Shown: positions 45,013-48,607 of the stretch, piece by piece
How the letters are laid out: each line of letters opens with the position of its first letter
How positions within the stretch are numbered: the first letter of the stretch is position 1
Origin: Sphingobacteriaceae bacterium
GTDB taxonomy: Bacteria > Bacteroidota > Bacteroidia > B-17B0 > Aurantibacillaceae
Reading direction: 5' to 3'
Assembly (NCBI GenBank): GCA_002319075.1
Contig: NVQB01000001.1
Span: 5,146,001 to 5,210,000 of the forward strand
Length of the DNA: 64,000 nt
The notes under the pieces: generated by a model
What the model was told of the DNA's origin: nothing
What the model saw: the letters and a program-made list of their open reading frames with translations, nothing else
Database searches by the model: none
Program-made: the position numbers and the translations under genes

Positions 45013-45097
45013 GTCTGACTAATTCTGATCGCTAATAATTTTAGGTGTGTTTAAGAATAGTTTCTTACATTGCGTCCCAAACTCAAAAAATATACCC

Positions 45098-45757
45098 ATG
45101 AAAAAAATAATCAGTGCAGTAGTAGTAATCCTCTTTTTATCATTTATTAATGCTTGCTCACCTTCGGGCACCTGCTCTGATAACCAACAGAACCAGAGTG
45201 AAACGGGCGTAGATTGTGGTGGCCCGTGTACAAATTGTCCTACCTGTATCGATGGTATACAAAATCAAAATGAACCCGGTGTCGATTGTGGCGGTCCTTG
45301 TCCTGCTTGTGTTTCCTGTACTGATGGAATTCAAAATCAGGGAGAGACGGCAATAGATTGCGGTGGTCCTTGTGCAAATTGCGCTATAATTTATCCAATG
45401 AATGGACTTTATGGTCCTGATGTTTTCAGAAACGACACCATCACTTTAAAAGGTATGACTACTCCGGTTGCTCAACCTTCTTATAAATATAGTTTATGTG
45501 CAAATTTACCTGCCAATGGTTTGCTTAAGGTAAAAATCACTTCACTTTCTGGAGGTGTATGGAGCATTTATGGTGGCACTCAAACTGGCTGGGCTATTGG
45601 TAATTTCCAAAACAATGCACAAGAGTTTAACGCAAGTGGACAGGTAAATTGCGACGTACAAATATTTTTAAAAAACAGCGGTTCAGCACTCATCGAATTT
45701 TTCGAATACGGCGCAACTACGCCTACGAGAACTAAACAAATTAGCTGGAGTCTTTAG
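45098..45757 (+). CDS. Lipoprotein with three Cys-rich DGIQNQ-E-DCGGPC repeats
   Basis: 219 residues from the ATG at 45098. An earlier in-frame start at 45047 would put 17 residues ahead of the signal peptide. The lipobox is FINAC (Cys17). Three repeats follow: [60 protein letters not shown], each ending in xxC, separated by a few residues. A ~120-residue beta-rich domain completes the chain ([42 protein letters not shown]). The Cys spacing suggests two disulfides per repeat or metal binding. Probably surface or periplasmic; no function known. Confidence 0.8.
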
Positions 45758-45951: not shown

Positions 45952-46542
45952 ATGAAAATTAAAGCATTCCTACTTCTTAGCTACACATTATTTCTACTTG
46001 GCGCTTGTAAAAAGAATTCAAGTAACTCTGGAACTTGTTCAGATGGTATCCTCAATCAAAACGAAACTTCTGTAGACTGTGGTGGCAAATGTTCCAAATG
46101 TGCTACTTGTTCAGATGGAATTCAAAATCAGGGAGAATCCGCTGTGGATTGCGGTGGTCCTTGCGGAAATTGTCCTACCAGCTATCCTGCCTTTGGAAAT
46201 TATGGCGGAAATATTTTGAGAAATGATACCATCACTATTAAACCGGATAGTCTGAAGGACATCCTTAGAAATGCTTATAGTATGTGCGCCATTATCGGTG
46301 ATAAATCGAGTCTCAGGGTTGTAGTGCGAACACTCGACAATAACGGAAGTGTAACTGCCTTCTCAGGATCGCAAACAGGATGGTATATCACCAACCAAAG
46401 CCCTTCGCAAAAGGAATTTTATGTGAATTTTCCTGTTAAAAGTGACATACATACTGTTTTCATAGGGCACAGCACCGCAATCATTGACATGTACGAAAAC
46501 GGAGCTATTACACCAACCCGAACGAAAACTATTTCCTGGTGA
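45952..46542 (+). CDS. Paralogous lipoprotein with two Cys-rich DCGG repeats
   Basis: 196 residues. The lipobox LLGAC puts the lipid cysteine at residue 19. Two repeats (TCSDGILNQNETSVDCGGKC and [20 protein letters not shown]) precede a C-terminal domain homologous to that of the gene before it (NILRNDTITIKPDS, FSGSQTGWYITN, GAITPTRTKTISW). It is a tandem duplicate that carries one repeat fewer. Spacing of 194 bp without a clear terminator allows separate expression. Function unknown. Confidence 0.8.
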   Translation: MKIKAFLLLSYTLFLLGACKKNSSNSGTCSDGILNQNETSVDCGGKCSKCATCSDGIQNQGESAVDCGGPCGNCPTSYPAFGNYGGNILRNDTITIKPDSLKDILRNAYSMCAIIGDKSSLRVVVRTLDNNGSVTAFSGSQTGWYITNQSPSQKEFYVNFPVKSDIHTVFIGHSTAIIDMYENGAITPTRTKTISW

Positions 46543-46545
46543 ACC

Positions 46546-47043
46546 TTAGCGCGTCATTTCTTCTACGATGGTTTTGTGCTGAGGATATAGCGAAATTAAT
46601 GAATGGCGTCCCGCCATCTCAAAATCTGCAAAATTAAATCCAGGGGCTACGGTGCAGCCGACTAGCGCACACTCACCACCTTGCTGAACGCGCGATCCAA
46701 ACCAGGTATTGGCTTTAACGGTATATTGAAAAACCTGTCCCTCGTCCATTTTATTTCCTACTAGAGTTATTTTTAACTCTCCTTGCTCATTGATTTCAAT
46801 AACTTCTAAAGCATCTCCCGAATAAAAATGCCAGGTCTCGTCGCTTTTAATTTTATGAAGCGCAGAAAAATTATTTTTCTCAATCAGGAAATAAATCGCT
46901 GTCGCAAAATTTCTATCACCACCAAATTCTTCGGGCAATGACTCTTTTGAGATTGTTCCTGCTGATCTGTAAGCTTCTTTGTAAAAGCCACCCTCAGGGT
47001 GTGGACTTAAATTCAAATAGTTAACGAGTTCTTCTACTTTCAT
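46546..47043 (-). CDS. DUF985 cupin protein
   Basis: 165 residues. LNLSPHPEGGFYKEAYRS, ATAIYFLIEKNNFSALHKIK, SDETWHFYSGDALEV and GCTVAPGFNFADFEMA are the conserved blocks of the DUF985 (Cupin_5) family, a single-domain double-stranded beta-helix. The metal-site positions (ALHKIKSDETWHFY) are retained. No reaction is established for the family; a sugar- or nucleotide-binding role has been proposed for some members. The gene overlaps the stop/start region of the serine-hydrolase-like gene by 4 bp, so the two are cotranscribed. Confidence 0.87.
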   Translation of the reverse strand: MKVEELVNYLNLSPHPEGGFYKEAYRSAGTISKESLPEEFGGDRNFATAIYFLIEKNNFSALHKIKSDETWHFYSGDALEVIEINEQGELKITLVGNKMDEGQVFQYTVKANTWFGSRVQQGGECALVGCTVAPGFNFADFEMAGRHSLISLYPQHKTIVEEMTR

Positions 47044-48182
47044 TTTTGTAAATAATTAAAAAGTGCTAGAGCCAAAAAATCAAGGCTTCGGTTTGTATTG
47101 GAGAGTAGTACCACGGCACAGTTTTTTTCCGGAATAAATCCACTAAATGCTCCAAAGCCATATGTAACGCCGCTTTGTGAAATGAGAGTGGTTTTCTTTT
47201 TAGTTTGGCTTAAATACCAGGTAGTGGCCACTTTAGGTCTTCCATTAAATGTTGGTTGAATTACTATTCTGGCGGCTTTGTCTTTTTGGTGCAGAAGATA
47301 ATCCAAATATAAAAGCAAATCTTCTGTATTCGACTTTAGAGACCCGGCAGCCTCGAATCCGCCAAGCTTCCAGGCGGGGGTAAAATTACCATCCTGATTG
47401 TATCCTGTGGATAATTTTCTAATCTGCTCGGCATCAATCACAGTGCTTGTGTTTTTTAATCCCAAGGGCAAACAAATTTTCTCTGCTACTAATTCATTAA
47501 ATGACTTTTTATAAATCTCTTCAAGAATAATTCCTAAAACTGCCATTCCTACATTAGAGTAATTGCATTCGCTTCCAGGAACTGTTTTTGGTTTGGTATT
47601 TTTCAGATATGAGAGAATCATCTCCTTACTATAACTTGCGTATGGATTTAAGGAATCGTAAGAAACCATTGATTTTAAATCTTCTGGCGTAGTCGCAAGT
47701 CCACTTGTATGGTTTGCCAGGTGCTTTACAAGTATTGGTACCCTATTAACTTCTAAAGAAGAGTATTTTCCTGGCAAATAGTCTCTAATGTCTGCATTTG
47801 TATCTATAGTCTTTTCTAAGATTGCCTGAGTTAATAGAAGTCCGGTGAAGCTGGTAGTTAAGGCACCAATCTCGTAGATGGTAGTTTTGTCTGCTAAAAT
47901 TTTCGAGCCTTTTTTTATTTCACCATAGTTGTAAAAATAACTTTCTCCTTTCTTTAAAATTCCAATGCTAATACCTGCAACTTCAGGATCCTGCATAAAT
48001 CTCATGAGCAGAGAATCAATAAATCGGTCAAGACTATCGAGTTTTTTATTGTCAGTTAAATAATCTTCGCGAATAAAATAATTAGTGTTTGGATAAATTT
48101 TAATTTGAGCACTAATCGAAAAGGATGAAAGTAAAAAGATGTAGAACAGAATTTTAATAATTTTGGCTGGAATTTCCTTCAC
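47040..48182 (-). CDS. Serine-hydrolase/class C beta-lactamase-fold protein without catalytic Ser and Lys (pseudoenzyme)
   Basis: 380 residues. The signal peptide ends SISA and is followed by Gln. The fold is that of class C beta-lactamases/penicillin-binding esterases: AGISIGILKKGESYFYNYGE, VKHLANHTSGLATTPEDL, the YSN element (208-210) and AAGSLKSNTEDLLLYL. The nucleophile motif SxxK, expected where active relatives read IGSxSKxFT, is here IGALTTSFT: Ala107 replaces Ser and Thr110 replaces Lys. The third motif, HxG in most members, is QSG. Only YxN is kept, so hydrolysis by the standard mechanism is not possible. A ligand-binding or regulatory role is inferred. Confidence 0.85.
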   Translation of the reverse strand: MKEIPAKIIKILFYIFLLSSFSISAQIKIYPNTNYFIREDYLTDNKKLDSLDRFIDSLLMRFMQDPEVAGISIGILKKGESYFYNYGEIKKGSKILADKTTIYEIGALTTSFTGLLLTQAILEKTIDTNADIRDYLPGKYSSLEVNRVPILVKHLANHTSGLATTPEDLKSMVSYDSLNPYASYSKEMILSYLKNTKPKTVPGSECNYSNVGMAVLGIILEEIYKKSFNELVAEKICLPLGLKNTSTVIDAEQIRKLSTGYNQDGNFTPAWKLGGFEAAGSLKSNTEDLLLYLDYLLHQKDKAARIVIQPTFNGRPKVATTWYLSQTKKKTTLISQSGVTYGFGAFSGFIPEKNCAVVLLSNTNRSLDFLALALFNYLQK

Positions 48183-48262: not shown

Positions 48263-48607
48263 ATGGAGAACGACACAAAAAACGTATTGATGCAATACCT
48301 TTTCAGGTTTGCAGAGCATTACAACATTCCAAACACTGATCTTATCAGTTTTAAAAAACGTGCTGAGCTTTTAGAAAGGGTAAAAGGCAAAGATGAAAAT
48401 GCAGCTACTGTTATTACAGCGCTCTTTGATTCGTTTATTAAAGCCGATCGCATTCAAAACGATAAAGAAAAATACGACAAAGCCCGTGTGCTTTGGGATG
48501 CAGAACATGCTGCCGCTGAAAAAGAAAAAGTAGATGCAGAAATGCTACTTATTAAATTTTGCAAAGCCAATGATATTGCCGTTGGTGGACTGGCTATAAA
48601 AGCGTAG
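48263..48607 (+). CDS. Small helical cytoplasmic protein of unknown function
   Basis: 114 residues, all-helical by pattern, with charged amphipathic segments (KKRAELLERVKGKDENAATV, HAAAEKEKVDAEMLLIKFCK). There is no signal peptide or known motif. It has its own strong terminator directly downstream, and the ATG follows an A/T-rich leader. No family assigned. Confidence 0.65.
   Translation: MENDTKNVLMQYLFRFAEHYNIPNTDLISFKKRAELLERVKGKDENAATVITALFDSFIKADRIQNDKEKYDKARVLWDAEHAAAEKEKVDAEMLLIKFCKANDIAVGGLAIKA

Follow-up and report, generated by a model that had tools for sequence, protein, structure and literature searches.

What does a protein of the beta-lactamase fold do once the residues that made it an enzyme are gone, and is it kept at all? 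This question is raised by a gene on the minus strand (47040..48182) of the window, the whole 64,000-nucleotide stretch of DNA analysed here, which encodes an exported protein of 380 aa with the PF00144 fold that is predicted from its Pfam match, its open reading frame and the motifs of its orthologs to be catalytically dead. Below, we describe the protein, trace its loss of motifs through related genomes and consider which role best fits the constraint that still acts on it.

Fold, motifs and export of the window protein

The open reading frame extends from a GTG start at 48182 to a stop at 47040, with zero internal stops. Its N-terminus has, as read by eye, the Sec-like features of a signal peptide covering residues ~1-25 (48108..48182, minus strand), with likely cleavage at an A-Q site before Q26, and we infer that the protein is exported to the periplasm. 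An intact signal peptide and an undamaged frame had also been noted in a preliminary description of this DNA, which agrees with what is seen here. PF00144 (Beta-lactamase) matches the protein with an E-value of 1.8e-44 over profile positions 2-315 of 329, a significant match over the length of the profile that places it in this family. Members of PF00144, or MEROPS family S12, include class C beta-lactamases, R61-type DD-peptidases, AmpH and EstB-like esterases. By sequence, the nearest solved relatives of the window protein are annotated beta-lactamases (6k8x, E 9.7e-28 by HMMER). Its scores are 136 bits against the NCBIfam class C beta-lactamase model NF033085, for which the cut-off is 415 bits, and 97 bits against the AmpH model, for which it is 266 bits. 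An AlphaFold2 model built from a two-row alignment (the window protein and L035, described below) has a mean pLDDT of 37.9, too low to be informative.

The protein aligns with solved AmpC-type enzymes over the SxxK, YxN and KTG/HxG regions, yet lacks the nucleophile, the catalytic lysine and the His/Lys of the third motif. In HMMER alignments to class C structures (4 of the 115 matched sequences), the residues opposite the catalytic Ser and Lys are A107 and T110, the YSN motif is in register and KTG is matched by QSG. Alignments and codons together place A107-L-T-T110 (GCC TTA ACT ACC; 47853..47864, minus strand) at the SxxK position and an intact Y208-S-N210 (TAC, TCT, AAT; 47553..47561, minus strand) at the YxN motif, so that both residue numberings given earlier were right. 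At the HxG/KTG motif stands Q336-S-G338 (CAA, AGC, GGC, preceded by S335, TCA; 47169..47177, minus strand). Here the earlier reading needs qualification: QSG does replace HxG, but the third motif is lost only in part, the basic residue having become Q while the Gly is kept.

Compared with a catalytic class C/S12 enzyme, the protein thus has Y-x-N, but neither the Ser and Lys of SxxK nor [KH]-x-G, and from these positions it is very probably not a hydrolase by the mechanism of its family; neither hydrolysis nor acylation chemistry would be expected of it. Sensors of the BlaR1/MecR1 type have a signalling part as well as a Ser that beta-lactams acylate. The window protein has no Ser at the acylation position, and Pfam at E 0.001 finds PF00144 alone and no signalling domain, which argues against a beta-lactam sensor of this kind.

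Recurrence of the motif loss among orthologs

Orthologs were taken as matches at E <= 1e-40, which occur in 31 of the 87 genomes of the wider family and amount to 32 proteins; at E <= 1e-10, the window protein has a match in 33 of the 40 genomes of its genus. L035, from Bacteroidetes bacterium isolate RYN_275, is the same protein as L015 of genome G028 and was excluded from the counts. We call an ortholog canonical if it keeps the Lys of SxxK. Ser and Lys of SxxK occur together with YSN in 27 of the 32 proteins, and HxG in 26 of these, the 27th (L043) being truncated before that motif; by position, S107, K110 and N210 are found in all 27 canonical copies and H336 in all 26 that reach it. This includes species of the same genus: the orthologs in G020, G023 and G014 have a full SxxK/YSN/HNG set, in contrast to the window protein, even though G014 has part of its neighbourhood and G020 and G023 likewise carry the overlapping cupin gene discussed below.

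The five remaining orthologs lack the Lys, and all lie within the window's genus. Their motifs are ALTT/YSN/QSG in the window and in G001, AISN/YSA/QNG in G029, SMSS/YSA/HSA in G039 and SISN/YSN/HNG in G016. Ser, Lys and His are all missing in three species (window, G001 and G029), and the copies of G039 and G016 retain the Ser. Position 110 reads T, T, N, S and N across the five, Y208 is retained in each and N210 in three (it is Ala in G029 and G039); since Tyr and Asn are retained in the window protein, part of the active-site chemistry remains.

The closest ortholog, that of G001, is 51% identical in protein sequence, has a partly common gene order and carries the identical ALTT/YSN/QSG. 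The alignment with close homologs proposed earlier therefore finds the A107/T110 substitution to recur, although 27 of the 32 orthologs have a normal SxxK, and the sharing of residue loss with other species that is expected of a pseudoenzyme is seen both here (ALTT/QSG) and in G029 (AISN/QNG). A lone decaying copy is rejected by this recurrence at 51% identity, and a sequencing error is rejected too, since a second genome has the same altered letters and the T110 codon, ACC, is two changes away from any Lys codon. That the protein regulates an active ortholog in the same cell, or serves as its decoy, is unsupported because no second ortholog at E <= 1e-40 was found in the five Lys-less genomes (listed completeness 99-100%); it might instead be partnered with one of the distant PF00144 paralogs.

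Trees were built from all 32 rows and from 30 rows, two long ones and the motif columns having been taken out of the second. The window protein and that of G001 are sisters (support 99/93 with 32 rows and 97/85 with 30), and the G029 copy joins them (93/83, and 94/97 without the motif columns), so that by parsimony the loss predates these species. The G016 copy clusters with canonical copies (99/97 and 98/99), and that of G039 is unplaced in the 32-row tree and stands beside a canonical copy in the 30-row tree (83/78). A single group of all five Lys-less copies is rejected (AU p 0.006), and a group of window, G001, G029 and G039 is not (AU p 0.34). At least two independent losses of the Lys therefore occurred, and perhaps a third.

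How often such losses occur can be gauged from more distant rows, among which one of 24 is Lys-less (21 loci, best matches of a class-wide search). This row comes from L067, in genome G367 of another family of the class, where a SISM/YSN/QDG copy stands in tandem beside an SITK copy, a Lys loss outside the window's family. The window's own genome has nine PF00144 matches; five of the other eight, L091 among them, matched the ortholog profile, all with S..K, and no match to it came from L092, L094 or L095. The part of L091 (C1:93714-94664) that matches PF00144 is interrupted by two stops, a TGA and a TAG; this distant paralog is probably a broken gene in view of these internal stops and the short open reading frames there. 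In the literature, a survey of 91 prokaryotic genomes counted nine putative inactive homologues (SPHs) among 254 S12 proteins (PMC2605481), so that dead S12 homologues are a known kind. Like the window protein, these have essential residues missing or substituted; unlike here, the accessible portion of the survey gives a count and no lineage with a shared, selected loss. Among open-licence papers, judged by title and start of abstract, we found none on a class C-fold pseudoenzyme.

Constraint, N-terminal region and gene neighbourhood

Pairwise GY94 codon fits bear on whether selection continued after the loss. Between the window and G001 copies, both of which carry it, omega is 0.066 (2dlnL 198 against omega = 1), a rough value because dS is saturated. 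This comparison of dN/dS, suggested in the preliminary description, thus indicates that constraint persists, as purifying selection after loss would have it. Fits at t ~60 were treated as saturated and their omega left unused (0.005-0.006 in 4 of 10 Lys-less pairs, 0.002-0.005 in 10 of 18 canonical pairs), and another canonical pair was excluded as well (t 37.9, omega 0.008). With dS near saturation throughout, so that all values are rough, the six unsaturated Lys-less pairs (t 4.2-7.0) give omega 0.066-0.12 and the seven unsaturated canonical pairs (t 2.6-10.4) 0.020-0.043. Constraint on the Lys-less copies is strong, if relaxed by a factor of roughly two to three relative to canonical ones, a difference whose direction is clear. 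These proteins evolve faster, and relaxation is therefore part of the story. Window and G001 are identical at 0.66, 0.70 and 0.41 of first, second and third codon positions and at 0.25 of 71 fourfold sites. Protein distances scaled to those of the cupin partner agree with this: the mean log-identity ratio is 1.67 for 15 canonical pairs, 1.92 for 18 mixed pairs and 2.10 for three Lys-less pairs, the pairs not being independent.

The changes are also unevenly placed. Conservation among the 27 canonical copies reaches 95% or more in 44 columns. The window protein keeps 38 of these and departs at 107, 110, 289, 335, 336 and 337; the motif columns, eight in number, account for four of the six departures (one-sided Fisher p 0.007), and the strict set of six motif residues for three (two-sided p 0.025). 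The same concentration is seen in G001, G029 and G039 (p 0.026 each) and is absent in G016 (p 0.65). Taken together, a motif loss common to orthologs and a continuing constraint by omega agree with the earlier proposal that selection keeps the fold without its catalytic residues.

Might another active site have arisen? At ten columns, window, G001 and G029 have the same letter and no more than 10% of canonical copies have it: F54, L59, I71, A107, S258, G314, Q336, A345, L359 and L367. S258 and Q336 are the only polar side chains among them, and S258 the one possible nucleophile; it is remote in sequence from all three motifs, and the G039 and G016 copies have Thr and Ala there. From the alignment, neither residue would be an obvious replacement catalyst.

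The Lys-less copies differ from most canonical ones at the N-terminus too. In the stop-to-stop frame, 22 of the 26 canonical copies with a visible N-terminus have 129-174 residues before the position of window residue 44 (L012, whose start is cut off by a contig end, was excluded from this count), compared with 40-43 in the other four and 36-54 in the five Lys-less copies. The 22 regions are mutually homologous, each matching a profile of the other 21 at E 2.7e-10 or better, and the three that were scanned resemble DUF3887 weakly (E 7.5e-5, 4.1e-5 and 0.005, below the Pfam cut-off). All five Lys-less copies are missing this extra region (Fisher p 0.0007, ignoring kinship); because the tree holds two independent pairs (sign test p 0.5), we regard the correlation with Lys loss as a lead only.

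Active-looking and dead copies share much of their surroundings. On one side of the window gene Pfam identifies a class III aminotransferase; the other side has a 114-aa open reading frame and the genes for FtsY and RibD. The aminotransferase family recurs near the ortholog in G001, G029, G039 and G014, the FtsY and RibD families in G029, G039 and G014, and the 114-aa family in G029, G039 and G020; since the G014 and G020 copies are canonical, these common neighbours suggest that dead and active-looking copies are one gene at one genomic site, and that the former are not dead duplicates. The divergent 114-aa protein (48263-48607, plus strand) has no Pfam match; it has relatives in four of 19 loci, the window's included, and its family adjoins the window-type gene in three of its four loci. 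At nine of the 19 loci, all with canonical copies (L051, L052, L053, L054, L056, L057, L058, L060 and L064), the gene is adjoined by a conserved E1/transketolase-type dehydrogenase and a 227-254-aa family, whose member in L051, the locus scanned, has no Pfam match. Elsewhere in the window, on the plus strand at 45047-45757 and 45952-46542, two adjacent genes encode proteins that by eye resemble each other and look secreted; both have repeats of a Cys-rich unit (C-x-D-G-x-x-N-Q-x-E-x-x-x-D-C-G-G-x-C) ahead of a similar C-terminal part, and neither matches Pfam or NCBIfam at E 0.001.

Immediately downstream of the window gene lies a PF06172 (Cupin_5/DUF985) gene for a protein of 165 aa (46546..47043, minus strand; Pfam E 9.7e-49), the closest solved chain to which is 1yud (E 4.8e-31). 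The two genes overlap by 4 bp in an ATGA stop/start sequence (47040..47043, minus strand) and are probably translationally coupled; the overlapping operon described earlier is thus present, and the arrangement recurs. A cupin gene is directly downstream in eight of the 19 loci examined and one gene away in another, with the ATGA overlap in seven of the eight adjacent pairs, the window's counted and those of G001 and G039 included, and by coordinates it also adjoins the gene in G015. PF06172 matches occur in 17 of the 40 genus genomes (that of G027 cut at a contig end), namely in 13 of the 21 with the gene and four of the 19 without it (Fisher p 0.012).

A direct partnership of the two proteins is weakened on several counts. 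The cupin has no signal peptide by eye and should therefore be cytoplasmic, while the window protein should be periplasmic; the operon occurs beside canonical as well as Lys-less copies; and no PF06172 cupin was found in two of the five Lys-less genomes, G029 and G016. The accessible part of a paper on DUF985 does not settle the cupin's function (PMC8704077).

Readings of the loss and their meaning

We consider it likely that the window protein is a periplasmic pseudoenzyme which selection maintains and which probably works through non-catalytic binding. An ancestral serine hydrolase of the class C/S12 type would have lost its nucleophile, catalytic lysine and third-motif histidine, the triple loss falling in the lineage to window, G001 and G029 (G029 with different letters at position 110), while export signal and intact frame were kept and purifying selection would have continued. 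The protein may then bind non-covalently in the old substrate cleft, where a cell-wall peptide, a D-amino-acid or another amide or ester would be candidate ligands, or it may bind another protein, much as Bacillus subtilis PBP 2B has a role independent of catalysis (PMC5656894); such binding appears the most likely role because acylation by the family mechanism would be impossible. A binding role is suggested by these considerations, the nature of the ligand is a guess, and a cell-wall ligand in particular is less likely than not; the sensing or binding of cell-wall or beta-lactam-like ligands proposed earlier would thus be a candidate role only.

If instead the enzyme was no longer needed, catalysis was lost and the open reading frame has merely not broken yet, one would expect the faster evolution and higher omega of the Lys-less copies, losses in at least two lineages and perhaps also a PF00144 paralog with internal stops in the same genome (L091). 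Against such decay, ALTT and QSG are common to copies only 51% identical whose frames are intact and whose omega is ~0.07, the overlap with the cupin gene also persists in G001 and G039, and an unselected frame would hardly outlast such divergence; we judge it improbable. Repeated loss of the Lys can also be read in another way, namely that the family's role in this genus was always structural or protein-binding, that catalysis drifted away and that the cleft binds nothing, and the neighbourhood and operon partner common to dead and active-looking copies would suit this. A precedent comes from Bacillus subtilis PBP 2B, a division PBP and distant relative that is naturally active and was inactivated in the laboratory. 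It belongs to the PBP/beta-lactamase superfamily and has a structural role independent of catalysis, as is proposed for the window protein (accessible part of PMC5656894). However, S, K and YSN are kept in 27 of the 32 orthologs, for which reason catalysis looks selected in most lineages, and an always-structural role seems unlikely to us, if a little less so than decay.

Least probable, and in our view quite improbable, is an enzyme of altered chemistry, for example one based on Tyr208 or assisted by its substrate, in which T109/T110, S258 or Q336 would have taken on new roles. The retention of Y208 in all five Lys-less copies and of N210 in three would fit, as would S258, a Ser that window, G001 and G029 have in common and few canonical copies carry; yet the letters at position 110 vary, N210 is Ala in G029 and G039, and S258, distant from the three motifs, gives way to T in G039 and A in G016. 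We know of no precedent for such chemistry in the beta-lactamase fold.

A maintained, binding pseudoenzyme is thus the reading we prefer. Going further, it is conceivable, though rather doubtful, that a periplasmic S12 hydrolase of this genus was converted at least twice to a non-catalytic receptor or scaffold that took the place of the active enzyme, instead of accompanying it, at its genomic site and in its operon; loss of the DUF3887-like N-terminal region would then belong to this change. The surprise would be moderate, since retention of a fold after loss of its chemistry is a known evolutionary outcome. If true, the genus would offer a natural series of active-looking and dead orthologs in a common neighbourhood, some with the same operon partner, which would let one ask what proteins of the beta-lactamase fold do besides hydrolysis, and for the Lys-less genes the label 'beta-lactamase' would mislead.
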